From: Lachnospiraceae bacterium
Lineage (GTDB): Bacteria > Bacillota > Clostridia > Lachnospirales > Lachnospiraceae
Length of the DNA: 64,000 nt
Assembly: GCA_021199655.1 (NCBI GenBank)
Contig: JAJQHQ010000110.1
Coordinates: forward strand, 1-64,000
Direction: 5' to 3'
The notes under the pieces were generated by a model. The model did not search any database, was not told where the DNA came from, and saw only the letters and a program-made list of their open reading frames with translations. A program made the position numbers and the translations under genes. The first letter of the stretch is position 1. Every line of letters starts with the position of its first letter. This document shows positions 32,167-49,335 of this stretch, one piece after another.

Positions 32167-35100
32167 TCAACCATCAAGTTGCTTTTTTCTTCTGTAATCG
32201 CTGCCCGCTAACAGGATTCCCATTGCCGCGATCATAAGGGCAAACCAGATCGTCAGCGGTGTGTCGTCGCCGGTCTGTACAGAATTCGCCTCTGTCTCTG
32301 ATTCAGTCTGCGCATTCGTTTCTGTCGCCGGTGTTTCCTCTTCCAACAATACGTTTGTGATAGTCACGCTCTTCTCTGTATGGTCCGCGTCGAGGATAAT
32401 GTTCTCATTGTCCACACTTACCCTGTATCCGAAAGCTGCGTCCTGCGCTACCGGTGTCCCGTCCGCATCTACTTCCGTCACATAGAGGTTCGTATCACTG
32501 CTGGTCAGGATCTGCGTTTCCACCGTCACGGTCACCTGCGATTTTCCTGCCATATCCAGTGCCACGATATTCTCTGATACCTCATCTGAGAGGGTGGTAA
32601 ATGCCGCGTCCTCAAAGATTCCGACATAGAAGACCTCATTGCTTGCCACCGCATTACCCGAAGCATCTGTGACTTTCTTGGTAATGCTCAGATGTCCTTC
32701 CATGCTGTAATAGCCGTCAGGAATTTCCATAAACTCATTATCAAGGGAAACCGCCGCCACGCTTCCCGATCCTTCGGTAGCAGCTTTGCTGCCATTTACA
32801 AAGTTCGCATAATACAGCGTGCCGTCCTCCACGGCGCCGGAAGCAATCGCGTTGCCTGCCGCATCACATTCGCTTACATAATAGGTCGTATCTTTCTCCA
32901 GGTTTGCAAATACAACTGTAGATGTATGAGCATCCTCAAAGCCGAGAGCCATGACCTCCGATACACGGTTTGTGCAGGAGTCATCCGAATACAGCGCCAC
33001 GTAGAAGGCCGCGTTTTCAGCGCAGATTGCGATACCGTCGCAGGAAAGCGTCTTCGTCACGGAAATCGATGGTCCGGTCTTTGTTTCGCTTTCGGTCTCT
33101 GTCTGCTTTTCAGTCTCGGTCTCCGATTCGAATTCCGTCTGCGTCTCGCTCTCGGTCTCCGTCTGCGTCTCACTTTCTGTTTCAGACTGCGCTTCGCTCT
33201 CAGATTCAGACTCGGTCTCCGTCTGCTTTTCGCTTTCGGTCTCTGTCTGCGGATTTGTCTCCGGCTCGGTTGGCGTATCGCTCGGGGTGTCGCTCGGAGT
33301 ATCACTCGGGGTGTCGCCCGGAGTATCACTCGGCGTGTCGCTCGGGGTGTCACTCGGAGTATCACTCGGAGTGTCGCTCGGAGTGTCGCTCGGCGTGTCA
33401 CTCGGAGTGTCGCTCGGCGTGTCGCCCGGGGTGTCGCTCGGAGTATCACTCGGAGTGTCGCTCGGCGGCGTGTCGTCCGGAGTGTCGTCCGGTTTCGTCT
33501 GAATTCTCGCGTCGTACATTGTCACCGTCTGAATCTCTCCGGTCGCCTCCACTGTGAACATTTTCTTTGAAGCTACCTCATAGCCATCCGGCGCCTGTTT
33601 CTCCACCAGCATGTAATTTCCTGCAGGCAGGCGGTCGATCTCATGAACCGTTCCGTCCGTCACCCAGAAGTCGATCAGATTGCCGGCCGTATCGTATACT
33701 TCCAGTGTCGCCCCGGCGAGTTCCTCTCCGGTCGTCTGATCTTTCTTGCTTACCTGTACCTTCGTGTAATCATTTGTAAACGCTGCCTCAACTGCCATCG
33801 TCTCTGCCGTCTGAGATCCGTCAAAGCTGATATTAACAATCTCGTCTGACAGCACATAGCCTGCCGGAGCACCGATTTCTTTTACATAGTATTCTCCGAG
33901 CGGCAGATCAATGTTGAACTCTACTGTACCGTCCTCACCCGTCGTTACCGATGCGAGCAGGGTATCTTCCGCAATCCGCACTCCGCTGAATGTCATGTCT
34001 TCCGCCGTATACAGTCCGAATACCGCGTCTTTTACCGGTGTGCTGCCATCCGGCTCGGTCTTCACGACAGATACGGCAGCTTTCATACGCTTATTTTCCA
34101 CTTCGACATCCACGATGGCAATGATTTCCTGCTTCTCGTTAAAGCCCAGCACCACCGATACCGGGGTGGTATCCTTAAGATAGCCGGTTCTACCTTCTGC
34201 CTCCACCAGCTCATAATCACCCAGCGGCAGGTCGGTAAATGTCGCCTTGCCGTCCGCATCCGTGGTCGCTGTCCCGACTTTATCTCCTTTGTTGTAGATC
34301 ACAGTTCCCTGAATCGTAATGTCTTCTGCGGCATGCAGCTCAAAGGTAACATCCTCAAGCGTTCCCTTCTCATAGGAGAATGTGTAATCGGGGACATCAA
34401 TCGTACTTAAGACTTCGCCGGTCTTGGTCACTGTGATCGAGCCATACAACAGGTCATCCACGATGGTAATATTCGAAACCTCACTTCCGTCCATCGTCAC
34501 AACACCGTACTTATCGATCGTGAAGGTTACATCATCCGCCTGTTTGAACCCATATGGCGTTACCGTCTCACTGATCACATAGGTGCCGGCCGGAATTCCG
34601 ATAATCTCGATCATGCCGTTCTGCGCCGTGATCATTTCCTCATTTGATTCATTCCCATCCGTAACCTTCGCGCCGTCCGCAGTCGTCGTTACAATCCGGA
34701 CTGCCTCTTTCGTATCCGCGTTCGTAATGGTCAGCACCGCGCCGACTACCGCCGCGTCATCGTAACCGCTGATCTTGGCAAGCTTCAAAGAGGTCGGAGC
34801 ATCCTCCATCTCCACTTCCACAGCTGTGCCGGAGTCGCTCACTTTAATCTCGATATCATCTGCCAGTGCGTATCCGGCAGGTGCGCTTACCTCGTGAAGC
34901 GTGTAGATTCCGGCAGTCAGATAATCTATCTCATGTACGGTCCCGTCACTTACCCATTCGTCCGCGACTTTACCGTTAGAATCCAGCAGCTGCAGCATCG
35001 CGCCAGCCAGAGCATCACCGGTCACGCTGTCTGTCTTGGAAATCTTTACTTTCGTGTAATCATTTGTGAAGCTTTCCGTGACAGATACGGTTGCTGTACT

Positions 35101-38100
35101 CGTATCGGCGTCCGCCGCCAAAGTGTCATGAAAATCAATTTCCTGTTTCTCGTCCGAAAGCACATAGCCATCCGGCGCGGAAATCTCCTGTACGTAATAC
35201 TTTCCATATGGCAGGTCGATGACGAACGACGCCTCACCCTTGCTGTCTGTTGTGACAGATTCAAGCCGGGTATCCGCCGGAATCAGGGTCGTCCCTATGG
35301 TCATTTCCTCCGCCGTATACAGGCCGAACTCCGCATTTTCAACCGGCGTGGTTCCGTCCGGCTCGGTCTTTGCCACAGACACCGCCAGCTTTATGCGGTC
35401 GTTCTCCACGGTCACATTCACTGCATCGATATCTGTCTTAGCGCCATTTCCATCATAGCCCACCGACACCGCAATTGGATCGGAATTCAGAAGATAGCCG
35501 CTCCAGCCCGCCGTCTCAATCAGGTAATAATTCCCGCGCGGCAGGTTTTCGAACGTTGCTGTACCATCCTCGCCAGTAGTCGTTTCTGCGATAAGTTTAC
35601 CTTTTTCATAGACCACAGAATTCTGTACTTTGATCTCTTCCGCTGCATACAGTTTAAATGTAACGCCCGAGAGAGCCCCATCCTTGTAAGTAATCGTGTT
35701 GTTCTGCAGGTTGAAGGTATTCAGTACCTCGCCGGTCTTTTTCACGGTGATCGAACCATAGTCCAGCTCATCCACAATGGTGATCTGGTTGCCATTTACA
35801 GCTGTTCCGCCGACTTTCACCGTACCGTCGCTGTCAATGGTAAAGGAAACCACATCCGCCGTCTCATAGCCTTCCGGTGTTACGGTCTCTGTAATGGTAT
35901 AATTGCCAGCCGGAATCCCGGTGAGCGAAATCACGCCGTTGGATGCAGTCACCGTTCCCAGGCTTGAACCATCTGCCCCGGTAACGTCCGCGCCAGTTTC
36001 CGTGATAGTCACAACTCGTACCACACTGTCTGTATCCGCATTTTTGATGGTCAGTTCTGCGCCAACAACCACCGAATCATCAAAACCGCTCACTTTACTC
36101 AGCTTCAGGCTGGTCAGCTCATCCTTCATAGTTACTTCAAGGACTTCCGCTGTTTCGGTCACGGTAAACTTCACGCCATCCGACAGCGCATATCCTGCGG
36201 GCGCCTCTTTTTCACGAAGCGTGTATTCTCCCTTCGGCAGCCGGTCAATCTCATAAGCTGTATCCGTACTTGTCCACGTATAGAGGATTTCCCCGGAGGA
36301 GCTGATCACCTGCAGGGCAGCTCCCGGCAGCGCGTTGCCTTCACTGTCCGTCTTCAGGATTTTTACCTTCGTATAATCGTTCGTAAACGATGCGGAGAGG
36401 GTCAGCGTCTCTTCCGTCTGTTTGCCGTCAAAATCGATCTCGTACTTCTCAGTGGAAAGCACATAGCCGTCCGGCGCTGAAATCTCCTGTACATAATATT
36501 CACCAAGCGGCAGGTCGATACTAAACGTGGCCTTGCCGTCCGCCCCTGTCATCACGGTCGAAAGAAGTGTATCCGCCGCCACCGTGACGCCGCCAAACGT
36601 CATTTCTTCCGCTGTATAAAGGCCAAACACGGCTTTTTCAAGAGCCTTCGTCTCATCGCCAAGCTCCGTCTTCACCAGAGAAACGCTCAGCTTCATCCGT
36701 TTGTTTTCCACAGAGGTCGCTGCGTCAACTACATTCGACAGGTTGCCCTGCTCGTCAAAGCCGACTACGACCGATACCGAAGTCTTATCCTCAAGATAGC
36801 CAGTCGTTCCGGCCTTTTCTACCAGGTAATAATTTCCGCGCGGCAGATCTTTAAAGGTCGCCGTGCCGTCTGCACCAGTAGTCTTCGTATCGATCAGGTC
36901 ATCCTTTGCGTAGATCAGAGTATTCTGTACCTTGATGTCCTCCGCTGCGTACAGATCAAATGTCACATCCGGAAGCGTTCCATCGTCATAGTTAAACGTA
37001 TAGTCCGCATCCTGCGATACCGTAACAGTGCTCAGAACTTCACCGGTCTTGGTGACGGTGATCGAGCCATAGAGCAGTTCGTCCGTGATCGTGATCTCGT
37101 TCGAGTCCACTTTCTTTCCATCTATTCTCACTACGCCGTATTCATCAATCGTGAATGTCACATCCGCAGCTGTCACAAAGCCATCCGGCGTTGTGGTCTC
37201 GCTGATCGTATACGTCCCGGCTTTCAGCCCGGTAATCTCAACCGCCTTGCCTGCTGTAGTAGTGACGGTTCTCACATCAGCAGAATTTTCTGCATTCGTG
37301 ATGGTCGGCACCGCACCGGCCACAAGCGTCGTGTTGTCATAGCCGCTCACCTTGCTGATTGTCAAACCGTTAACCTTATTGGTGACGCCAATCGTTTCCG
37401 GGATCACCTCGACTGCATCCGCCTCAAGCTCACCGTCTCCGTCAGAATCCACGCCATCGGCGTCTATCAGTGTAAAGTCATTATCGTCAATCGTAAATTC
37501 ATGCTTTGTCGTACTCAGGATGTAGCCATCCAGGGTCTCCGTCTCCACAAGGACATAATCCCCATATGGCAGGTTTACGATCTTAATCTGCCCGCTGGAA
37601 TCGGTCGTCAGCGTCTTATTCGGGGAGGAACTGTCAATGAAATACGCCTGCTCCGCACTTGACCAGTCTACATAATATGCATCGCCTGCCGTATCCCGCA
37701 GCTCATATTTCACGCCCTGCAGGGCTGCCCCATTGCTGCTGGTCTTTGTAAGCACCACTTCACCATTGTAACTCTGACCATTCGTGAAGGTCGCCAGCAC
37801 GCCTTCTTCTTCCGGATCATAGGTGAAATTGAATGTCATCTCCTTGGTAGAATCATCGCTTCTGGTGACATTCAGCAGCGTAGTCTTCCCGGATGCCGCC
37901 TCGACAATCTTATACGTATGGCCGGATTCAATATATCCTCCGTTATTCACACCATTGATGATGCGGTGCGGCGTGAGCTCTGTCTCAACATTCGGAGTCA
38001 CTTCCAGAGTCTTTACCAGTGTCTCTGTCTCATTTCCCTGCTGATCCGTCGTCACTTCATAGACATAGAAGGTATAGGTATCATCATCGCTCATAGCAGC

Positions 38101-41100
38101 TGACGGATCTGTCACAACCTTCTTGATCGACGGTGCGTCCGGGATCTTCACGCCTACCTTCGGCGGCTCCGGTGTCAGTTCAATGGAGCCAACATAATAC
38201 CGATAGCCGAACGCGTTCCAGGCGATCATAAGCGGTTCCGCGTTATTTTGAATTTCCGAGTCAAATGTCACCTGCAGCGTATAGCCGCTCGGAAGAACGA
38301 AATCTGAAGCCATTGTCACACGGAACGAGTGGGTAGAACTATCCGCCGTCGACGACCAGGCAGATGCGCCATTCCAGTCGCTGTCAGTATAAGCGGTCTT
38401 GTTCGAATAGGAAATACTGTATTCGGAAGCCTGCAGCGGGATCTCATCGCCATTCTCATCGAACATGGTCACCGTGATATTCGCGTCGTCCGCCAGAGCA
38501 AGGGTAAATTCCGAGCCTCTTGACTGGTTTAAGTTCACCGCGCCGGTATCGTCAATGTCCGCCAGAGAGTCGATGATCACGACATTTTCAAAATTCTTTG
38601 CGGAACGATTCAATACTCGCAAGGTAAATGTTACGATATCTTCTGCCGCATCCACAACAATATAATTCTTATTGCCGTTTGCATAATCTTCCGCTGTACC
38701 GTTATAGCCGTATCCGTAATTTTCCTGCTCATCCTTTTCTTCAATCTTCTGATAAGAAGATGATGCATACTCCTCGCTGCCAAAAACATATTCCGGATCT
38801 TGTACCTGTACAGTCAGAGCCGCGAAATAGTTCTCGTCTTTCACAGAGAACGGAATCTCATCAAGATACAGGCTATAGCCGGAAGGCGCTACCACCTCTT
38901 TTAAGTAATAGCTGCCAACAGGGAGACCACTGATATAGATCTTCCCGCCATAGCTTGTCAGCCGGCTGTATTCATAACCGGTTCCGGTTGCACTGTAGAC
39001 ACGTCCATTTTCATTTTTTTCACCGGTATAATACAGCTTCACAAGATTATCATCTGAATCATATAATTTGAACACGATAGTATTGCTTTCAATCAGTTTC
39101 CCCTCCGTATCCAGTTTCGCGACCATCACATCGCCTGAATTGTGGCAATCTGTAATGGTAACTGTCAGGTCTTCATAATAGTGAGCACCTGTGATAGTAA
39201 TCTCCATGGAATCCGCCAGTTCATAGCCTTCCGGAGCATCCGTTTCCACGATAGTATATTTCCCCATCGGGAGTTTATTTACAGAAAGGATACCATCTGT
39301 TGTAGTAAGGGTAGAAACTGTTCCGTCAGCATCATAATCGTATTCGCCCGCATTCAGGACAAAATTCATTACATTTTCATTTTCATCCTTTATCTCAAAC
39401 GAAGCAGTGTCAGATGTAATCGTAGTACCCTGAGAATCCACCTTCGTCAAAGTAAAATTACCCGTGTTGTGCTGGTTCGTTACCGTCACTTCCAACGGCG
39501 TAACGTAATTCGAAGCTGTCACCGTAAAGGTTGTGTCTGCAATTACGGCATAACCGGCGGGTGTCTGTGTTTCGACCAGAGTATATGTCCCTGCCGGCAG
39601 GTACTTAACAGAAACCTTCCCATCAGCAGTCTCGATAGTATCAAGCGTATTTTCAGCAGCTATGTTGCTTACGTAATAGCCGTCAGAATCTTTCGTAAAA
39701 AATACCAGATTGCCATCGCTGTCATAAACCTGGAACTTAACGACATCGTCAGTTATCACATTGCCTTTATCATCCTGTTTTGTTACATTGACATGTCCCG
39801 TCCCGATCGTGTTGCTGAATGTAACAAACCGCGTCGATGTGGAAGAGATCATACTATAAAAGTTTGTTGTACCGAGGCCATAGCCCAACGGAGCAAACGT
39901 TTCTTTCAGATAATAGGTCTGAGCAGAAGCTGTCCAGTTTGAGCCGGTGTTATAATAGCAATAATATGGCAGTCCGGTCAGCGTTACTTTCCCAGCCGCT
40001 GTTTCGATTTCTGTAACGCAGCCGCTGTCCACCTCAGAAGCAGTGACATATTCGTAACAGCTGGAGATGACATTTTGATTATCATCCAGCAGATTGTCCA
40101 GTCTCCTGAAATATACGGGATCGGTATACTCGGAGTCTTTATAGAGTTCGAATTTGACCGTATCGGTCATTATATCCCCATGTTCATCCGTCTTTGTGAT
40201 TTCTACGTTTCCAGCGCATTCCTTATTCGAAACATTCATTGTATATACACTGGATGTCTTACTTAAGCGAAATTCTGTCCAGGCCCCCATTATAGTTCCG
40301 GTTGAATAATAGTAGCCATCAGGAGCAGCTATCTCGTATAAATAATAATCCTTATTTTGTGAAAGCCCCGTAATATAAAGTTTTCCGCCATATGTTTCCA
40401 GCTCTTTCACAGTATCTGTATCATCCGTCCCGGCCAGTCGATACAGATGCCCCAGTGCATCATCAACCCCCATATCAACAAAGCTATACGCTTTACTTAA
40501 ATTACTGGCAAGAGAAGCTGAATACGTAACTGTAAACTTCGCTTCATCAGAAGTAATCAGATTTCCATCTGTATCCAGCTTGTTTACCTGTAAAGCAGTT
40601 CCGTCTCCAATATATTCATTCTCAACCGTTACAAGCTTAGTTTCGCTCGTCCATTGCTTGTCTGTAACTTCAAACTCAATCAATTCATCCATTTTCTTAT
40701 AATTTGTCGGGGCCGCAGTTTCTTCAAGATAGTAAGTCCCTACAGGCAAATTATATAAATAGACAGTCGAACTCGAAACTGTCAGCTCACACAGATCATC
40801 CGCAGATTCCGAATAATAAAACGAATCGGAGTTCTGTGTAAAATAAACAGGATTCTTACTTTCGTCATATATTTTGTAGCTTACAGACGCATCGTCACTA
40901 AAACTGATCGCATTTCCGTCTGTATCTGTCTTTTTAATGCTCACTGATCCGCTGCGGGTTAAGTAGTTTTTGAAAGTAATCGCAGTGCCCAATCCCTCAT
41001 ATACAAAATCAACATACTGCAGCACCCCATTAGCGACCTGCGTCGTCTCCCAGTCAAAGCTTTCCGCATCAATATCAATTCCGTATGTATTGACCAGGTT

Positions 41101-44100
41101 ATAGCTGCTCCTGTCATCCGTATAAAGATACAAACTGCCGATGGTTTCCTGCAGCCGATACTGTTCTCCCTCTTCAAGACTTAACCCGGCATCAGCAAGC
41201 GCCTGATCCAGGTACAGGGCATATCCGGCCTGCAGCTTAAATGTATATATACTTGTATATTTCTTAGTATCTGAGTCATATTTAGATAAATTGAAAGTAT
41301 ACTCCTTATCGCCAATAAACTCCGGCAGTGACGTAAGCAGGTTTCCATTTATATCATACAGTTCTTTTGCAACAACGATTTCTTCCTGCTCCGGCCGCCA
41401 TACTACATCCGTTGTATCTTCATACAGCCGTTTAATAAGGGAAATATTATCATCATAAATCGTATAAATGTAGCCAAACAGGTTGTGATATTCGGTATCA
41501 TAATCCGCATCATCTCTGGTCGTCACAGAATAGTTGAAGTACAGCATATCCGCATCCTCGAGGGTTACTGTATCATCAAATACTACCCGGAACGCACGGT
41601 CATCCTGTGAGTAAACGGTATGCCAGATCGATTCATCCTCAGCGGCAGCGAAATCTACATTGTATACGGTATCATTTGTAGACATCGGATGTCGGCCGCC
41701 ATGCAGTGCATTTTCTGTATACATGACCGTATAATGAGATGGATCAATTACTTCCTTATTCCCATTCGTACGAAGAATAAAAGCCTCAAAGCTATCCGTA
41801 TTTACCGTATATCCTCCGCCCGGCTCATCCGTCTCAATGCCGCCGTTGGTTCCCGGCAGCAGATCATAAAAGATAATATTCTGGAGTTTTGACTGCGTAT
41901 AGTTGGATGTCTGGTACAGGTAAGACATCATCTGCAATGTGAAATCAACTGTCTTTGTACCAGTAATTTCGTCAATGTAAACCAGACTGGATTTGGAATT
42001 CACTTCATCATCCGTTTTCTTATTAATGTATTTTTCACCATCTGTCGCGATTACGGAAACCCAGTCATTGGCGTAAATGCCGGTATCATCGTATTCCTGC
42101 GAAGCATCCTGAAGAGACCATCCTGACATATTGTCTATTGAGAGATAGCAGGTATTATAATACCAGTCCAGAAGCTCCTCTTCCATGCCCGTGTAAATAT
42201 AAACCTCCAGTGTTGCCCCTGCCGGGAAATTCTTCAGCAGGTCTTGCACTGTGGCATTACAGTTCTCTGTTAAATCAAGATTATATACGTTTCTGACTAC
42301 CGCCGCTCCCGTTACCTTTGAAGTATAATCCGCAGTCTCTGTAGAATCCGGAGTCAAATAACTATAATCATCAGACATATAATAGAAAGTATATGCGTCT
42401 GCCCCGCTGATTACCACCGCGTAATAACCGTAAATTTTAAAAGGCTGGTCAATCTTTTCAACAAGCTGAGAAGTATCAATATCCGCAACACCGTCATTCG
42501 TAACTGTCACCTTCCAGATAACACTGCTCCGGTAATCGTGCGTCGCATGAATGCCATCTACTAATGAATAATAGATCCCGTTTCCGGTATCGGCATCCGT
42601 TGAAAATACAGAGCCATCCAAACCATAAACCACAGAATCCCAATCCAGGTTTTCATAATATGCTCCGGATTTATCCTTATCAGCGATATCATAGGTAAAA
42701 TATGCTTCCTTTTCTATCGTTGCTGATTTCGGAACCGTAATGTTCAGATCGATGCCACTGATTATATAATTATTACCGATCGGGCCTTTATGGTCGCCAT
42801 TATAAACATAGTCCGTTACATTTCGGATAGCGGTACCGGCTCTGCCGCTCATGGCATCATAATAACTCATTGAACAACGTGTATATCCTGTCGCAGTGCT
42901 CCCTGTACCGCCGGCTTTGAACAGATTCATGTCCATTTTTGCGGAGGACCAGCAAACAAGATTGCCAATATTGGAGGATCCAACATAGCTGCTATATTTC
43001 GCTCCGGTCCCGTCTCCCAGATATTCCGCATGAATCCGGCAGGCATAGGCAATCGTCACACAATTCATTGCCGGAAGCGTGCCGTTTAAAGACAGGCTGA
43101 CCACATTGCTGTTCGTCGTCGAAGACTGATAATTACCTGAATAGCTCTGGCCGGATATATTTACTGTTGATTGGACCCATTCATAAGTATTCTTATAATA
43201 GGTTGTAAAATCCGTACCATAGCCACCCAGCGCATTCATGGATGCAGCACCGATCTTACCATCTGTATCTACCGTGCAGACCCCCAGGTATTCATACCCG
43301 GCAGGCAATTTGTCCCAGAGATACGTATCAGACAGATTAAGATCCTGATCCGAGTCATTAAACAGTGTCACAAAGAACACCATTACATCATCATCATATG
43401 ATGTGAGCTGAATGGAATTCGTCGTGTTCTTCGCAGAGTAATTTGTGGCAGCAGTGCCTGCCATTAATTCATCATAAGTCGTTACGCATGCTATTCCTTT
43501 GTCTACGCCATATGACGCAGTGCTATTGTCTGCACAGGTCATATTGACAGCGGAGCAGACCTTTTGTTTCGGATTATATAGATTGGATACGTTTTGTGTA
43601 CAGCTGGCACCCGTTTTGCTGTCCGTACTGGCTGTACCGGCATTGCAGCTTCCGTCATTTACATAACTGGAATTAAATGAAAAGATACAATTCCCGCCTG
43701 GTGTTACTGTATACCTTTCAGAAGCATTTACATAACATGTATAAGTTCCTGTGGAGCCCGATGGTTTCTCCAATGTCCAGTGCACACTGTGATTCAGTTT
43801 AGCCTGCTTCGGATTCGAACTCGTATGCACCGTGTAGACCAGATAAAACCCCTGCCCGGGAGACAGAATCTGAGAACTGCCTGCCGATAACGATACCTTT
43901 ACCGCGCTGCTGCCTGAAGATGTATTCACATTAAATGTATAGGCGCTGCTTAGATTGTTCTTAAAAGTAGAGGGATTTGCCGGATAATAATAATAGCCAT
44001 TCGGATAATAATCCCGTATACATATCGCAGATGCATTTGTCAAAGAAGCGGCGCCGCTTCCTGACTCAATCAAATAGGAATACATTCCACCACAATACGC

Positions 44101-47100
44101 TCCGTTTTCACCTAAACAGTATTTATAACTGATATCTGTACTTGCATATGACGATGAGAGCGTGTTAAATCCAACAAATTCAATACTGGATGATGCTCCA
44201 TTGAAATACAGGTCAATGTCCGTTTTACTCAGATCAATATCTTCCGTGCCGTCATTTGCAAAATAGGAATAATATGTAATATATTCCCCGTTTTGAATCT
44301 GGCTGGAATAAGTAAGCTCATTGACATTTTTCAGGAACGCATTTATCACTGCTTCTCCATCATCATAGTTGCTTCCGTTTTTCCCCAGAACGCCCGTCTG
44401 AACAAAGATACGATCCTCCAACGTATGAGTAACCGTCGCTGTAATGGAAGTGCCCAAAATCGCAGCAGTATTATCGGGGGTAGTGCCGGAAGATTGAATG
44501 GTATACAGATATTGACTGTACGCATCACCAGAAGGCATATTAAGAACAAATGCCTGAGAAATTGTTTCGCCTGCTTTGATTCTCACGCCATAAATATATG
44601 GGCCGCCAACATACTGTGAAGAGAGTGTATCAATTCTGTCCGAATACTTTGTTAAACCGCTCGCAGTTACATAAGAAGCAACTATATTGTCATAAGATCC
44701 AAACGAACCGTCGCTTCCGGAATAAAGACTATAAGAGCCACCATACCCATTCGTGCCATAGCACGACATCCAGTAACCCCATGCAGCTCCGCCCGTACTT
44801 ACAATACTTTTTGTTACTGTATCATATGAGTAATATCCTGCAAGCGGATTGATATCGCCCAAATTCACGTACAGGTTTTTTTCGGAATTATTTGTCAATG
44901 TAATGGAATATAATACAGCTCCGCCATTATACAGCGTGTCCGAATAATTACTGGAAGACGTACCTTCATAGGAGGATGCCAGATAGCCATCGACCGCATT
45001 ATAGTCAAAAAGGATTTCTTTTGATAATTCCAGATCATCATCAGCAGAAGGAGATTCCCAGACGCCTGCAGGAATCACGACCACCTGATCACTAAAATCG
45101 CTGCTATTCCAAATGAAATGTGCAGTATTTGAAATTCCTCCCGTTGTCAGTACTTCTACTTCATAGGTGATCTCCAAAACGTCAGAACCATCTACCTGAA
45201 TATTCCCACAGAAAGCATTATAAAAAGTAGCTGCTGTCACCTCACTGATATCGTCGGCAGAAGATATCGTGATCAATTCAGAATATCCGACTGTAAGCCC
45301 CAGTTCCTTAAGTGCCTCAACGCTCTCATCTGTTATCTTTGCGTTTTTTGAATAAATAACATCATAAAAGAATCCGGTCATTCCGGTACGGCTGTCATTT
45401 GTAAGGGTAACCGTGTATTCATATTTATCGCCAGCTTCCGCATACCTTACGCTTGCTTCTTTTTCCAGAGTGAAATCAAATGTATCCGCAGCAATAGAAA
45501 CACTTTTTTGAGCATTCAGGGAAATATCATCTATGCTGACGCAAGGCACAAAAGTCGCTTTTACCGTATTATCAATCACTTCATCGCCGGTAAAAACATA
45601 TTCCTCAGATACCAGAAGGCTTTCCGAACAAAGCTTCACGCTAAGCTGCGAAATCATATTATAATCATCTGTCAGAATCCCTTCCGCATCCCTGTTCGGA
45701 TTCGATGTTGTGATGACAAAGCTTGCCTTATCCAGCTCATCACTGACTTCCAGGTCACTTAAGGTATACTCGAATGTGCCGCAGGATACAGCAATCACCT
45801 GCGCCGTTCCAGCATAGATTCCGTCATCCTTCAATTCCATCGAATCCGGGAATGTCAGTCCATCCGGCAAAGTAATAGTCTCTTCCACAGATGTACTCTC
45901 TGTCCAGATCACGCCTGTCGCAGCTTTATTCTTATCCACACTGAACGTATATGTAATATCATCGCTCAATGTCCCCTCTGTCTTTGCCTCAATCTCAGAA
46001 ACAGATGCGGTCTTTTCCAGATTCTCCCATAAAAACGAAGATGTCCACTCCAGAGAAATATCCTCGCAAAGGTAATCGTTTGATCCATCTCCTACCGTAT
46101 GTGTGATTTCCGGCACAAGAACGAGTGTCTCCACCGGGCCATAAATACCGTTCGGAACACAAAACTCCAGTTCCATCTCAACGGATGTACCTGCCGGCAT
46201 AACATATTCCAGATATTCCGCGACCGCGTCTCCATTGATATCATACTCATAAGCATGCGTCACGGTAATGGTCAGCTTCGAATTATCCTCGCTCGAATAA
46301 ACAATCTCATCGTCTACCAGATCCAATAACGTAGCAGCGGTGTTCATGTTCCCTTCCGCATCCTGCATATACAGGCGCACTGTCGCCTTGTCGCCGTCAT
46401 TTGTCGCGGAATAAGAGGTCTTGACCGTGACAAGATGATTCTCACCAGTCTTTACAGAGTCCTCCTCTTCCGATTTCATCTTGATCACAACACCCTCATT
46501 GACAACTTTTTCACTCTCTTCAGCTCCTACGCTCCCGAGCCCTCCGCTTGACTGTGCTTCAAAGTAAGCAGATAATGCCGTCAAACGTGCAGTATTCACA
46601 CTCGACTGATTTTCCGCCGAAAGCGCGTTATATGCACTATAAACAGCCTGCATCTGGTTATAAACCGCGTTCAGGCTGTCCTCGTCCATTCCATCCAAAT
46701 CAGTTGTAGCAGGAAGTGCTTCGATCAGCTCCTGCACACAGGTAACGCAATCTCCTGCGGTATTCCCATGCACGCAGGTCTCCGCGCCGCTTCCCATTCC
46801 AATGGTACCTTCCGGGTCTGTTTCTGCGTTGGTCTCTGCGTTAGCTTCAGCGTTGGTTTCCGCATTTGATTCCGTTCCAATACTGTTTCCAACAGCCCCG
46901 CCCGTATTCGCGTTCGTACCCGCAGAAGCGCCTTCACCACTCTCTGAGCCGCTCGCTCCTTCTGAGCCGGCATCTTCTTCCGAGCCCGCTGCTGCATTAT
47001 TGCCTTCACCGGCATCCGCTGTACTCCCCGCCTCGGTTTCAGTCTCAGATTCCGTCTCTGTCTTTTCCGCAGCCGCTTCCTCAGATACCGCCGTTATCGC

Positions 47101-47229
47101 GGCAGTCTCTGACGTCTCCGCGCCCGTGCCGCTTTCACTCGCAAACGCGCTCGTCGGCACGCTCGTCACGCAAAGTGACAGCGCCATGAACAGTGCCATT
47201 GCTTTCTGTTTTAAACTCTTCTTTTTCAT
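32167..47229 (-). CDS. giant wall-anchored surface adhesin (5020 residues)
   Basis: Signal peptide MKKKSLKQKAMALFMALSLC, cut near AFA/SES; an Ala/Glu/Thr/Gly-rich stretch to about residue 150; a small domain at 153-235; a long beta-rich region to about 2080 with isopeptide/DUF11-like elements; six SpaA/Cna-B-like domains at 2090-2830 (each ending in a motif such as GTYYLEETAAP); further domains to about 3260; then a four-domain block repeated three times (3285-4570), an SDTP repeat, a Glu/Ser/Thr-rich stalk, two more Cna-B-like domains, and a QTGD-type sorting motif (VQTGDDTP, about 4984), membrane helix and RRKKQ tail. It should be a sortase-linked adhesin or pilus-like backbone. AAGGGGGAT precedes the ATG. 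Confidence 0.9.
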   Translation of the reverse strand: MKKKSLKQKAMALFMALSLCVTSVPTSAFASESGTGAETSETAAITAVSEEAAAEKTETESETETEAGSTADAGEGNNAAAGSEEDAGSEGASGSESGEGASAGTNANTGGAVGNSIGTESNAETNAEANAETNAETDPEGTIGMGSGAETCVHGNTAGDCVTCVQELIEALPATTDLDGMDEDSLNAVYNQMQAVYSAYNALSAENQSSVNTARLTALSAYFEAQSSGGLGSVGAEESEKVVNEGVVIKMKSEEEDSVKTGENHLVTVKTSYSATNDGDKATVRLYMQDAEGNMNTAATLLDLVDDEIVYSSEDNSKLTITVTHAYEYDINGDAVAEYLEYVMPAGTSVEMELEFCVPNGIYGPVETLVLVPEITHTVGDGSNDYLCEDISLEWTSSFLWENLEKTASVSEIEAKTEGTLSDDITYTFSVDKNKAATGVIWTESTSVEETITLPDGLTFPDSMELKDDGIYAGTAQVIAVSCGTFEYTLSDLEVSDELDKASFVITTSNPNRDAEGILTDDYNMISQLSVKLCSESLLVSEEYVFTGDEVIDNTVKATFVPCVSIDDISLNAQKSVSIAADTFDFTLEKEASVRYAEAGDKYEYTVTLTNDSRTGMTGFFYDVIYSKNAKITDESVEALKELGLTVGYSELITISSADDISEVTAATFYNAFCGNIQVDGSDVLEITYEVEVLTTGGISNTAHFIWNSSDFSDQVVVIPAGVWESPSADDDLELSKEILFDYNAVDGYLASSYEGTSSSNYSDTLYNGGAVLYSITLTNNSEKNLYVNLGDINPLAGYYSYDTVTKSIVSTGGAAWGYWMSCYGTNGYGGSYSLYSGSDGSFGSYDNIVASYVTASGLTKYSDRIDTLSSQYVGGPYIYGVRIKAGETISQAFVLNMPSGDAYSQYLYTIQSSGTTPDNTAAILGTSITATVTHTLEDRIFVQTGVLGKNGSNYDDGEAVINAFLKNVNELTYSSQIQNGEYITYYSYFANDGTEDIDLSKTDIDLYFNGASSSIEFVGFNTLSSSYASTDISYKYCLGENGAYCGGMYSYLIESGSGAASLTNASAICIRDYYPNGYYYYPANPSTFKNNLSSAYTFNVNTSSGSSAVKVSLSAGSSQILSPGQGFYLVYTVHTSSNPKQAKLNHSVHWTLEKPSGSTGTYTCYVNASERYTVTPGGNCIFSFNSSYVNDGSCNAGTASTDSKTGASCTQNVSNLYNPKQKVCSAVNMTCADNSTASYGVDKGIACVTTYDELMAGTAATNYSAKNTTNSIQLTSYDDDVMVFFVTLFNDSDQDLNLSDTYLWDKLPAGYEYLGVCTVDTDGKIGAASMNALGGYGTDFTTYYKNTYEWVQSTVNISGQSYSGNYQSSTTNSNVVSLSLNGTLPAMNCVTIAYACRIHAEYLGDGTGAKYSSYVGSSNIGNLVCWSSAKMDMNLFKAGGTGSTATGYTRCSMSYYDAMSGRAGTAIRNVTDYVYNGDHKGPIGNNYIISGIDLNITVPKSATIEKEAYFTYDIADKDKSGAYYENLDWDSVVYGLDGSVFSTDADTGNGIYYSLVDGIHATHDYRSSVIWKVTVTNDGVADIDTSQLVEKIDQPFKIYGYYAVVISGADAYTFYYMSDDYSYLTPDSTETADYTSKVTGAAVVRNVYNLDLTENCNATVQDLLKNFPAGATLEVYIYTGMEEELLDWYYNTCYLSIDNMSGWSLQDASQEYDDTGIYANDWVSVIATDGEKYINKKTDDEVNSKSSLVYIDEITGTKTVDFTLQMMSYLYQTSNYTQSKLQNIIFYDLLPGTNGGIETDEPGGGYTVNTDSFEAFILRTNGNKEVIDPSHYTVMYTENALHGGRHPMSTNDTVYNVDFAAAEDESIWHTVYSQDDRAFRVVFDDTVTLEDADMLYFNYSVTTRDDADYDTEYHNLFGYIYTIYDDNISLIKRLYEDTTDVVWRPEQEEIVVAKELYDINGNLLTSLPEFIGDKEYTFNLSKYDSDTKKYTSIYTFKLQAGYALYLDQALADAGLSLEEGEQYRLQETIGSLYLYTDDRSSYNLVNTYGIDIDAESFDWETTQVANGVLQYVDFVYEGLGTAITFKNYLTRSGSVSIKKTDTDGNAISFSDDASVSYKIYDESKNPVYFTQNSDSFYYSESADDLCELTVSSSTVYLYNLPVGTYYLEETAAPTNYKKMDELIEFEVTDKQWTSETKLVTVENEYIGDGTALQVNKLDTDGNLITSDEAKFTVTYSASLASNLSKAYSFVDMGVDDALGHLYRLAGTDDTDTVKELETYGGKLYITGLSQNKDYYLYEIAAPDGYYYSTGTIMGAWTEFRLSKTSSVYTMNVSNKECAGNVEITKTDEHGDIMTDTVKFELYKDSEYTDPVYFRRLDNLLDDNQNVISSCYEYVTASEVDSGCVTEIETAAGKVTLTGLPYYCYYNTGSNWTASAQTYYLKETFAPLGYGLGTTNFYSMISSTSTRFVTFSNTIGTGHVNVTKQDDKGNVITDDVVKFQVYDSDGNLVFFTKDSDGYYVSNIAAENTLDTIETADGKVSVKYLPAGTYTLVETQTPAGYAVIADTTFTVTASNYVTPLEVTVTNQHNTGNFTLTKVDSQGTTITSDTASFEIKDENENVMNFVLNAGEYDYDADGTVSTLTTTDGILSVNKLPMGKYTIVETDAPEGYELADSMEITITGAHYYEDLTVTITDCHNSGDVMVAKLDTEGKLIESNTIVFKLYDSDDNLVKLYYTGEKNENGRVYSATGTGYEYSRLTSYGGKIYISGLPVGSYYLKEVVAPSGYSLYLDEIPFSVKDENYFAALTVQVQDPEYVFGSEEYASSSYQKIEEKDEQENYGYGYNGTAEDYANGNKNYIVVDAAEDIVTFTLRVLNRSAKNFENVVIIDSLADIDDTGAVNLNQSRGSEFTLALADDANITVTMFDENGDEIPLQASEYSISYSNKTAYTDSDWNGASAWSSTADSSTHSFRVTMASDFVLPSGYTLQVTFDSEIQNNAEPLMIAWNAFGYRYYVGSIELTPEPPKVGVKIPDAPSIKKVVTDPSAAMSDDDTYTFYVYEVTTDQQGNETETLVKTLEVTPNVETELTPHRIINGVNNGGYIESGHTYKIVEAASGKTTLLNVTRSDDSTKEMTFNFTYDPEEEGVLATFTNGQSYNGEVVLTKTSSNGAALQGVKYELRDTAGDAYYVDWSSAEQAYFIDSSSPNKTLTTDSSGQIKIVNLPYGDYVLVETETLDGYILSTTKHEFTIDDNDFTLIDADGVDSDGDGELEADAVEVIPETIGVTNKVNGLTISKVSGYDNTTLVAGAVPTITNAENSADVRTVTTTAGKAVEITGLKAGTYTISETTTPDGFVTAADVTFTIDEYGVVRIDGKKVDSNEITITDELLYGSITVTKTGEVLSTVTVSQDADYTFNYDDGTLPDVTFDLYAAEDIKVQNTLIYAKDDLIDTKTTGADGTATFKDLPRGNYYLVEKAGTTGYLEDKTSVSVVVGFDEQGNLSNVVDAATSVENKRMKLSVSLVKTELGDETKALEKAVFGLYTAEEMTFGGVTVAADTLLSTVMTGADGKATFSIDLPLGEYYVQEISAPDGYVLSTEKYEIDFDGKQTEETLTLSASFTNDYTKVKILKTDSEGNALPGAALQVISSSGEILYTWTSTDTAYEIDRLPKGEYTLREKEAPAGYALSDGVKFTVTETAEVLEVTMKDELTSLKLSKVSGFDDSVVVGAELTIKNADTDSVVRVVTITETGADVTGADGSSLGTVTASNGVISLTGIPAGNYTITETVTPEGYETADVVSFTIDSDGTVKVGGTAVNGNQITIVDELDYGSITVKKTGEVLNTFNLQNNTITYKDGALSGVTFKLYAAEEIKVQNSVVYEKGKLIAETTTGEDGTATFENLPRGNYYLIETAGWSGYLLNSDPIAVSVGYDGNGAKTDIDAVNVTVENDRIKLAVSVAKTEPDGTTPVENAEFGLYTAEEMTIGTTLIPADTRLESVTTDSKGEASFVIDLPYGKYYVQEISAPDGYVLSDEKQEIDFHDTLAADADTSTATVSVTESFTNDYTKVKISKTDSVTGDALAGAMLQLLDSNGKVADEWVSDGTVHEIDYLTAGIYTLHEVSAPAGYALADDIEIKVSDSGTAVEVEMEDAPTSLKLAKISGYDDAAVVGAVLTITNADTKEAVRIVTTTADGAKVTDGNESNEEMITAQNGMIEIIGIPAGTYVISETVTPYGFKQADDVTFTIDKYGVVTMDGSEVSNITIVDDLLYGSITVTKTGEVLSTIDVPDYTFSYEKGTLEDVTFELHAAEDITIQGTVIYNKGDKVGTATTDADGKATFTDLPLGDYELVEAEGRTGYLKDTTPVSVVLGFNEKQEIIAIVDVEVENKRMKAAVSVVKTEPDGSTPVKDAVFGLYTAEDMTFSGVRIAEDTLLASVTTGEDGTVEFNIDLPLGEYYVKEIGAPAGYVLSDEIVNISFDGSQTAETMAVEAAFTNDYTKVQVSKKDQTTGEELAGATLEVYDTAGNLIDFWVTDGTVHEIDRLPAGNYMLVEKQAPDGYEVASKKMFTVEATGEIQTVTMYDARIQTKPDDTPDDTPPSDTPSDTPSDTPGDTPSDTPSDTPSDTPSDTPSDTPSDTPSDTPSDTPGDTPSDTPSDTPSDTPTEPETNPQTETESEKQTETESESESEAQSETESETQTETESETQTEFESETETEKQTETESETKTGPSISVTKTLSCDGIAICAENAAFYVALYSDDSCTNRVSEVMALGFEDAHTSTVVFANLEKDTTYYVSECDAAGNAIASGAVEDGTLYYANFVNGSKAATEGSGSVAAVSLDNEFMEIPDGYYSMEGHLSITKKVTDASGNAVASNEVFYVGIFEDAAFTTLSDEVSENIVALDMAGKSQVTVTVETQILTSSDTNLYVTEVDADGTPVAQDAAFGYRVSVDNENIILDADHTEKSVTITNVLLEEETPATETNAQTESETEANSVQTGDDTPLTIWFALMIAAMGILLAGSDYRRKKQLDG
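33262..33483 (-). repeat. 12-bp tandem repeat encoding (SDTP)n
   Basis: About sixteen 12-base units (AGCGACACCCCG type) code for SDTP with two GDTP variants, plus DDTP units at one end. The repeat is inside the giant gene and forms a flexible spacer near the cell-wall anchor. Copy number of such repeats often varies between isolates. Confidence 0.92.
33520..37374 (-). repeat. three-copy ~1.3-kb super-repeat in the giant gene
   Basis: Blocks starting at SKVSGYDNTT (about 37374), SKVSGFDDSV (about 36121) and AKISGYDDAA (about 34799) each contain the same four domain types in order: S-GYD unit, GSITVTKTGEV unit, SVxKTEPDG/TAEEM unit, and KVxxxKTD unit. Copies differ by many substitutions, so they are old relative to fresh tandem duplications. 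Confidence 0.85.
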
Positions 47230-47325
47230 CTTAATCCCCCTTGGTGCAGATGTGTAAAGCTGAAATGACCTGTGCCGGATTTATGTTACACTTTTACATA
47301 AATACAGGACCTGTAAATTTGAATC

Positions 47326-47357
47326 ATTGTAACACCATTGCCCCCCCCCCGAATCAA
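47326..47357 (-). promoter_or_regulatory. promoter of the giant adhesin with a ten-G spacer
   Basis: On the minus strand TTGATT (47352-47357) and an extended -10 TGTTACAAT (-10 TACAAT at 47326-47331) are separated by 20 bases that include ten consecutive Gs (47341-47350 as C on the + strand). Loss of three Gs would give a 17-base spacer. The start codon is about 97 bases downstream. Confidence 0.7.
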
Positions 47358-47506
47358 GAGAGTTTGGGCAGTTTCGTAAAATTTTCGTAAATGTTTCCTC
47401 GCTTTTCGTGAATTCTGTCCAACGCTTTTTCAGCATTTGTCGTCCGTCCATTGACATTCCCGTGCATATCGTAACCACTTCGCCGCTTTCGCGCAGGTCG
47501 TCGCGA

Positions 47507-47527
47507 ATCGAGCAGGAGGCGGCTTTA
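47507..47527. repeat. short copy of the intergenic ATCGAG repeat
   Basis: ATCGAGCAGGAGGCGGCTT matches 18 of 19 bases of the start of the repeat at 13178. Confidence 0.4.
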
Positions 47528-47552
47528 GCTGCAAAACTCCCTTGCACCCAAA

Positions 47553-47580
47553 AAGAAAAAGCCCCGAAGGGCTTTTTCTG
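47553..47580 (-). terminator. bidirectional terminator
   Basis: AGAAAAAGCCC and GGGCTTTTTCT form an 11-bp stem with loop CGAA and T tracts on both sides. It ends the 47590 gene, just before the giant gene promoter. Confidence 0.82.
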
Positions 47581-47589
47581 TATTCTGCT

Positions 47590-49335
47590 TTATATTTCCG
47601 GCGTATATTCTTCCTTCTCACACACAACCCTGCATTTCTTTTTAAAGCAGGCAATCCCATACTTATAAATCGTACGATATCCTTTCCGTTTCAACTCCTG
47701 CGTGTAGTCCATCCGCTCAATCTGAGTCATAGCATCATCGCACCCGGCAGTGAACTGTGCATTTTCAGCATACTTAAACTCGATGATTATACCAATATCT
47801 TCCTTTTCGATTTCGACCCTCACATCACAATAGCCGTCTCCACTATCCGCATTTGTTTTCGATTTCCAGCCGTCTATGTTGGCAAGAATCCCTATCATCA
47901 GACCGTGATAGAGGATTTCCTTTTTATCTTTCTGAACGCCGGAATCCCTGACCGTAATCGAATCATAAAGATAGGAAGTAAGCAGCTTCTGCGTGCCCGC
48001 CGCATCGCCGGTCTTCAGGGCATCACGGAATTCCTCCAGCCGCCTGCTGTTCTTCCTTACCATATCGTTAAAATATGCTGTGATCTGTCTGGTGAAAATT
48101 CTCCCGATCTCCCTGTTGGGAATGACAAGCTGATAAATGCCGGCTTCCTCCGCAGTGCCGCGCCGGGTCAGATATCCCGTTGCGAACAGTACGCTCCATA
48201 TGTTTTCAATCGAATCATAAAGCCGGTTGTATGTCAGGTCTTCATGTATTTCTTTCTTAATAGCCTCTCCTGCTACCAGCGCTTCAATTTCACTTTTGGT
48301 CTGCTCATTGCCGGATTTTTCTATTAATCGGCGTACCACGTCATTGCCGCTTGTATTTGACCAGTAATCCCGGGGCATTGCAGCAGGATTCCATGTCAGT
48401 TCATAACAGTAGCTTATCACGTCCCAGGGACAGTATACATTTACGTCTCCAAACAGATACCCGTCATACCACGCCTTAACCGTATCATAGTTCTTTATCA
48501 GCCCATAATATTCCAGCATTGTTTTTACTTCATCATCTGTAAATCCAAAATATTCGTCAAAATGAACCGTTGTTACAGAAAGGACGTTCAGGTTGTTCAG
48601 ACCCGTAAAAATGCTTTCCTTCGCTGCTCTCAGGCACCCGGTAAGCACAGCAAAATACAGGCTGTCATTTGTTTTCAGCGCCTGGTTAAACATATTGCGT
48701 ATCAGCGTGATCATCTGTTCATAATAATTTTTTTCATGTGCCTTTGCCAACGGTACATCATATTCATCTATCAGAATAATCACCTTTTTCCCGTAATGGC
48801 GGCACAGCAGAGAAGAAAGTGTTTTCAAGCTCCCCACAAGCGCAGGATCTGACATGGCATAAACATTCTTCCCTGTTGTATCAATCGTAATCAGCTGCTT
48901 ATAGATTTCTTTTTCTTCCTCTGACAGTACATCACTGTCCAGCAGGAAACGAAAACGCATAGCCTCATCTCCGATGAGGGTACTCAGAAAGGTGCGCGCC
49001 GAAGCAAAATCATCCCCATCGACAGATTTTAAACTGAGAGAGATGACCGGGAACTTTCCCATGTATTCTTTGCACAAAGCCTTCTCGCTTGAGATCTCCA
49101 GTCCGTCAAAGACGGACGTATCACAGCCAATTTCAAAAAATGCTTTCAGCATACTCATATTTAAGGATTTTCCAAAGCGCCGCGGGCGGGTAAACAGGTT
49201 TACCTTCCCCCACGCGCTCAACAAATCCCGGATCATTGCCGTCTTGTCAACGTAATAAAATCCTTCTGTGCGAATCTCCTCAAAGTTCTCTATGCCTACC
49301 GGGAGTTTTTTATTCCTGCTGATCTTATCATTCAT
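47590..49335 (-). CDS. AAA-ATPase_like / PDDEXK_9 protein (DUF1703 type)
   Basis: 581 residues. The N-terminal ATPase-like part has the family opening LPVGIENFEEIRTEGFYYVD, then a Walker A-like FTRPRRFGKS near residue 49 and Walker B LIDEYDVPL near 200. The C-terminal part has a PD-(D/E)xK-like core (DVRVEIEKEDIGIIIEFKYA). Such proteins are abundant in gut Clostridia and Bacteroides; function is unproven. Only a weak AAAG-type site lies before the start. Confidence 0.85.
   Translation of the reverse strand: MNDKISRNKKLPVGIENFEEIRTEGFYYVDKTAMIRDLLSAWGKVNLFTRPRRFGKSLNMSMLKAFFEIGCDTSVFDGLEISSEKALCKEYMGKFPVISLSLKSVDGDDFASARTFLSTLIGDEAMRFRFLLDSDVLSEEEKEIYKQLITIDTTGKNVYAMSDPALVGSLKTLSSLLCRHYGKKVIILIDEYDVPLAKAHEKNYYEQMITLIRNMFNQALKTNDSLYFAVLTGCLRAAKESIFTGLNNLNVLSVTTVHFDEYFGFTDDEVKTMLEYYGLIKNYDTVKAWYDGYLFGDVNVYCPWDVISYCYELTWNPAAMPRDYWSNTSGNDVVRRLIEKSGNEQTKSEIEALVAGEAIKKEIHEDLTYNRLYDSIENIWSVLFATGYLTRRGTAEEAGIYQLVIPNREIGRIFTRQITAYFNDMVRKNSRRLEEFRDALKTGDAAGTQKLLTSYLYDSITVRDSGVQKDKKEILYHGLMIGILANIDGWKSKTNADSGDGYCDVRVEIEKEDIGIIIEFKYAENAQFTAGCDDAMTQIERMDYTQELKRKGYRTIYKYGIACFKKKCRVVCEKEEYTPEI

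Follow-up and report, generated by a model that had tools for sequence, protein, structure and literature searches.

In Neisseria meningitidis the spacer of the porA promoter contains a poly-G tract, and one G more or less alters transcription, as given in the sections consulted of PMC3899988; the same sections describe hifA/hifB of Haemophilus influenzae, where a (TA)n repeat changes the -10/-35 spacing for an adhesive structure (PMC3899988). According to the parts consulted of two further papers, Neisseria gonorrhoeae fetA carries a homopolymer between -10 and -35 that is 10-14 long among strains (PMC5320596), and slippage of G-tracts controls the sortase-dependent pili of Bifidobacterium breve, the authors mentioning G-tracts in promoter spacers too (PMC9187656). 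Here we describe a ten-G tract in the promoter spacer of a gene for a giant adhesin-like protein, found in a window (the whole stretch of DNA that was analyzed, 64,000 nucleotides) from a Lachnospiraceae bacterium. Phase variation in gut Clostridia has been discussed mostly as DNA inversions. If poly-G promoters work in Lachnospiraceae, for which a gut origin is plausible, an abundant commensal family would vary its surface by cheap, Neisseria-like slippage.

As far as the consulted parts of these sources go, our locus is like porA in that a poly-G tract separates the -35 from the -10 in the promoter of a gene for a surface protein, but porA encodes a Gram-negative outer-membrane porin and the link between length and expression is experimental there, whereas ours is sequence-based (PMC3899988). 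The extended -10 and the giant SpaA-repeat adhesin are further differences from porA. With fetA the locus shares a homopolymer in the -35/-10 spacer, although the fetA tract consists of Cs and its strain variation is documented (PMC5320596). The likeness to hifA/hifB lies in a repeat within the promoter spacer and an adhesive product, but that repeat is a dinucleotide in a divergent promoter (PMC3899988). Bifidobacterium breve is a gut commensal with G-tract slippage and a surface structure, the sortase-dependent pili, but the tracts examined in that species lie within genes and act as frameshift switches, and it belongs to another phylum (PMC9187656).

We consider it likely that the adhesin is served by a promoter of its own in which the ten Gs act as a hypermutable spacer, and that slippage varies adhesin transcription as in phase-variable promoters of the porA/fetA type. 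What leads us to this reading is the promoter anatomy together with tract lengths of 10, 9 and 8 in orthologous promoters and the recurrence of such spacers in the family, often before secreted proteins. If it is true, deep sequencing of the tract lengths could reveal the expression states of the adhesin, which consensus assemblies conceal.

Anatomy of the adhesin promoter

The gene (32167..47229, minus strand) is an open reading frame for 5020 residues. Its product carries a signal peptide and 17 SpaA (prealbumin-like) stretches and is thus a secreted, adhesin-like protein, presumably exposed on the surface; its C-terminus consists of QTGD, a hydrophobic segment and a basic tail, which we take to be sorting-signal-like. 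A promoter/terminator scan placed a terminator-like hairpin (47554..47579, minus strand) 3' of the upstream AAA-ATPase/PD-(D/E)XK gene (47590-49335), and because this hairpin separates the upstream gene, the adhesin probably needs a promoter of its own.

On the minus strand the promoter (47326..47357) reads TTGATT-C-G10-CAATGGTGT-TACAAT. The -35-like hexamer TTGATT (47352..47357) is followed by a single C (47351), the ten Gs (47341..47350), CAATGGTGT (47332..47340) and, overlapping the latter, a TGn extended -10, TGT-TACAAT (47326..47334, with TACAAT at 47326..47331). The ten Gs between TTGATT and TGTTACAAT form a slip-prone homopolymer (8 or more) inside the promoter of one gene. The first-pass annotation had described TTGATT and an extended -10 held 20 bases apart with ten Gs, and the coordinates bear this out exactly. 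The end of the -10 lies 96 nt from the start of the adhesin reading frame, and a ribosome-binding-like AAGGGGG (47236..47242, minus strand) precedes the ATG at 47229; the related genome G001 has the same AAGGGGGAT.

The annotation had also proposed that changes of one to three Gs would carry the spacer through the best range of 16-18, and this was right only in part. Two and three losses do bring the spacer to 18 and 17, but a single loss leaves it at 19 and 16 takes four. The assembled allele, with its spacer of 20, misses the best range and would have to lose three Gs to reach 17. Since one loss gives 19 and 18-16 requires two to four, this allele is predicted to be weak or reliant on the extended -10, an element that can reduce the importance of the -35 and so counts against a spacing switch. 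Because a single slip misses 16-18 and an extended -10 is present, tuning may be likelier for this promoter than clean ON/OFF switching. What stands of the annotation's phase-variation reading is a real promoter with a slip-prone spacer, supported by the recurrence in the family and by a tract that is kept in both close orthologues at other lengths; a single slip into 16-18 does not stand.

In the mechanism that we propose, replication slippage would add or remove Gs in the spacer, and each gain or loss would shift the -35 relative to the extended -10 both in distance and in rotation. RNA polymerase would then initiate transcription of the giant adhesin gene more or less often, and the population would be mixed for adhesin level, with surface variation as the presumed benefit.

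Related promoters in the genus, family and class

We compared this promoter with those of its genus in a sample of 47 genomes including this one (46 others), one genome per species. With 372 residues from the N-terminal part of the adhesin as query, matches were obtained in 7 of the 47, this genome among them, and close orthologues over most of the query were present in G040 (74%) and G001 (58%). Their promoters read CTTGC-G9-TCAAACGGTGT-TATAAT in G001 and CTTGAT-G8-TAAAGTGT-TATAAC in G040. The nine and eight Gs lie at the position equivalent to our ten, CTTG is kept in both, and the -10 is again extended (TGT-TATAAT and TGT-TATAAC, respectively). A TTG-type -35, poly-G and an extended -10 are retained in all three genomes that have a close adhesin copy, and when the three are aligned, CTTG and the G run are conspicuous amid diverged flanks; the aligner displaces the G040 -10, whose position was read from the locus sequences instead. 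The tract is therefore retained with a different length (10, 9 and 8) in related genomes, in a comparison that runs from species to species. With the TTG hexamer as the starting point, this genome has a spacer of 20, G001 one of 18 and G040 one of 15, and one step takes the first to 19 and the last to 16. The G001 -35 (TTGCGG) is weak and merges into the G tract, which counts against the switch reading. A distant relative of the adhesin, in G019, which matches part of the query at 32% identity, has no upstream run of at least six Gs, and at least three more adhesin-domain genes in the genus lack a repeat at that place; both points count against the switch reading. A search of phage records gave no copy, and scanning viral contigs for this promoter gave nothing.

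A second promoter of like design in this genome, TTGAAT-CGC-G9-TAATGC-TATAAT, is located upstream of a 270-aa DUF6591 protein and speaks for the reading proposed here. The region is present in one of the 46 other genus genomes, G013, where the promoter is identical including the nine Gs and lies inside a region 92% identical. As far as these two sequences go, the second promoter shows retention without length change; the difference between species is thus not universal, which counts against a switch.

To count such promoters we used the pattern TTGANN-N{0,8}-G7-N{3,14}-TANAAT, with the same pattern reversed as the control. The pattern was chosen after this promoter had been seen, which counts against the following numbers. 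The genus gave 9 matches in 8 genomes and 1 with the reversed control, which had 0 in this genome. In the family (397 genomes) there were 51 matches in 39 genomes against 10; the 51 include the two of this genome, and two overlapping matches represent one site. The excess was smaller in the class (291 genomes), with 34 matches against 12, and 8 of the 34 came from the single genome G599 and 4 from Lachnospiraceae itself. Spacers of 15-18 were found in 36 of the 51 family matches, compared with 13 expected from the freedom that the pattern itself leaves, although where hexamers were ambiguous the script chose the one nearest 17, slightly favouring this count. The spacer was 15 in 9 of the 16 seven-G sites and 17-19 in 12 of the 18 ten- and eleven-G sites, a trend that is partly built in, because a longer tract lengthens any spacer; the spacers of the seven-G sites are, for their part, far shorter than the pattern permits. 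Two orthologous promoters, in G436 and G120, have the form TTGATTTTTC-G-TGGATATAAT, with elements that are identical apart from the tract, which is 10 Gs long in the former and 9 in the latter.

Many of these sites precede genes for secreted proteins. Starting from 56 sites (8 from the genus and 48 from the family census, the window site omitted), of which 4 without a reading frame were dropped, a signal peptide was scored in 27 of 52 downstream reading frames and in 13 of 87 others at the same loci (Fisher p 4.6e-6). This p is optimistic, since the score is heuristic and several sites are related. The score, a home-made one, missed three clear cases (L065, L138 and L143) when we inspected them by eye. 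The other 25 of the 52 sites precede genes that do not score as secreted, which counts against the association. Poly-G spacer promoters could be a general Lachnospiraceae way of varying secreted proteins. Our literature search, with family or gut terms and with most subscription journals outside its coverage, returned no report of such Lachnospiraceae promoters.

Two sets of matches were concentrated in few genomes. The class-level genome G599 (~1.1 Mb) has eight of the class matches, with tracts of 9-14 Gs, and one promoter sequence occurs there at two places, with 11 and with 12 Gs. Seven matches with 10-11 Gs (L145-L151) come from G453 and G144, two genomes of a different genus in the family. 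Each of the seven lies upstream of a gene for a signal-peptide protein, and four of these proteins are similar at the N-terminus.

G runs are scarcer than chance in the genome of the window (3.98 Mb, 110 contigs). GGGGGG matched 10 times in the window against a shuffle mean of 24. In the whole genome there are 14 internal runs of at least 8 Gs and 4 of at least 9, where ~62 and ~15 are expected from base composition by a simple independent-base estimate using the G+C of the window. Two of the four runs of at least 9 sit in TTGA...TANAAT promoter-like spacers.

Alternative explanations for the tract

The main rival to a change of -35/-10 spacing is a change of operator distance. Three TTTACGAAA-like direct repeats lie upstream of the -35 on the minus strand (47372..47412; at 47372-47380, at 47383-47391 and, as TTCACGAAA, at 47404-47412). 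Judged from sequence they are a possible operator, and the promoter, given its extended -10, could depend on a regulator bound to them, with the tract altering the distance and rotation between operator and -10. Bordetella fim promoters are of this kind, having the tract between the activator site and the -10 and a poor or absent -35. Consistent with such an arrangement, the repeats start at 47372, 47383 and 47404, that is, 11 and 21 bp apart and near whole helical turns; a 28-bp stretch with the two -35-proximal repeats is identical in G001, where the third is absent; and a related palindrome stands before two paralogue promoters, one of which has an adjoining G9. The TTG-type -35, however, is kept in all three genomes, and G040 retains the poly-G but has no clear TTTACGAAA repeats. 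The TTTACGAAA motif, with one mismatch allowed, occurs 26 times in the window against 19 expected, no clear excess, and its palindrome form is limited to 2 of the 47 genus genomes. Weighing these points, we regard the operator-distance explanation as unlikely and a change of -35/-10 spacing as the better account.

It is also conceivable that the promoter is real but its G run arose by chance or is fixed, with a spacer that is constant within the species and no switching. That the ten-G allele comes from one genome only would agree with this, as would the identical tract length in G013 at the second site, but the depletion of G runs in this genome, the differing lengths in both close orthologues and the family-wide excess over the reversed control make a fixed run distinctly improbable. 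Still less credit is due to the idea that the poly-G motif is a look-alike and the working promoter of the adhesin lies elsewhere. Such a motif might well have the spacer of 20 seen in the assembly and escape a consensus scan with spacers 16-18, and our scan of 47180-47700 on both strands indeed found no promoter; the same -10 and -35-like elements are, nevertheless, retained in two other species, and consensus scans of ~500 nt upstream with spacers 16-18 revealed no other gene-strand promoter in this genome, G001 or G040. An alternative promoter in the 5' leader of the adhesin was sought by the consensus scan as well, and none was found. As for an assembly or two-colour sequencing artefact, another contig of this genome (G000:C105:11479-11530, L043) does terminate in 52 Gs, probably by a two-colour artefact, and for this reason that run, the fifteenth, was excluded from the G-run counts. 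The ten-G tract, in contrast, lies inside a contig of 64.6 kb, is bordered by flanks of its own and has G9 and G8 counterparts at the equivalent place in other MAGs, which rules out this source for practical purposes.

Other repeats in the genome and genus

The 14 internal runs of at least 8 Gs comprise 2 promoter spacers, 3 frame changes, 1 signal peptide and 8 others. A G10 (G000:C34:41066, L038) stands where a long reading frame changes, and the piece downstream matches Sulfatase, PF00884. At two further reading-frame changes there is a G8, one with a downstream piece that matches Hexapep (G000:C12:3241, L033) and one with a signal-peptide-like frame upstream and no domain match downstream (G000:C72:7866, L040). 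Another G8 is in frame within a signal peptide, with no domain match (G000:C95:54110, L042). These four runs are probable cases of coding phase variation and count in favour of the slippage reading.

Searching the genus for the adhesin domains gave 16 matches, which we classified by upstream repeat. Four have a poly-G spacer (the window, G001:C37, G040:C164 and, with seven Gs, G036:C117), in three (GACA)n precedes the gene (G000:C18, G036:C121 and G001:C123), and in four a run of G7-G9 stands upstream or within the coding sequence (G000:C17, G030:C54, the second gene of G001:C123 and G020:C106). One has only the remnant GACAGACA (G030:C125), and in four we found no repeat (G000:C4, G036:C129, G019:C136 and G036:C52, the start of the last not located). 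Repeats like TTTACGAAA also occur upstream of adhesin promoters other than that of the window, as a palindrome in G030 and G036 (L095 and L098) where the window has direct repeats, and may possibly be the site of a shared regulator. The palindrome TTTCGTAAA...TTTACGAAA was rejected as a genus-wide operator, being found in 2 of 47 genomes only.

The second class of repeat, (GACA)n, forms arrays in 14 of the 47 genus genomes. For 19 distinct promoters the upstream sequence could be read, and in every one the array starts 2-5 nt 3' of the best -10, whereas 2000 shuffles of the upstream 45 nt gave 4.1 such cases on average and 11 at most. The tally covers the loci fetched rather than every array, and it leaves out 9 rows that repeated a promoter start (mostly one site listed twice) as well as 4 arrays truncated at the end of a contig. 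Because the arrays start so close past the -10, transcripts should start within the repeat; if this is true, (GACA)n would be a repeat switch anchored at the start site, a mechanism other than the usual change of spacing. We see about an even chance that the giant SpaA-type adhesins of the genus make up a repertoire with repeat-driven expression, through poly-G spacers and (GACA)n past the -10, and that the poly-G device is general in Lachnospiraceae.

The (GACA)n loci with sigma-A-like promoters carry 6.5-19 units (L159-L164, L166-L172, L176, L178, L181, L183, L184 and L188). Several arrays precede adhesin-like genes and others do not. An identical promoter start recurs at three loci with arrays of different length: 11.5 units in L179, 8.25 in L187 and 14.75 or more in L167, whose array runs up to the end of the contig.
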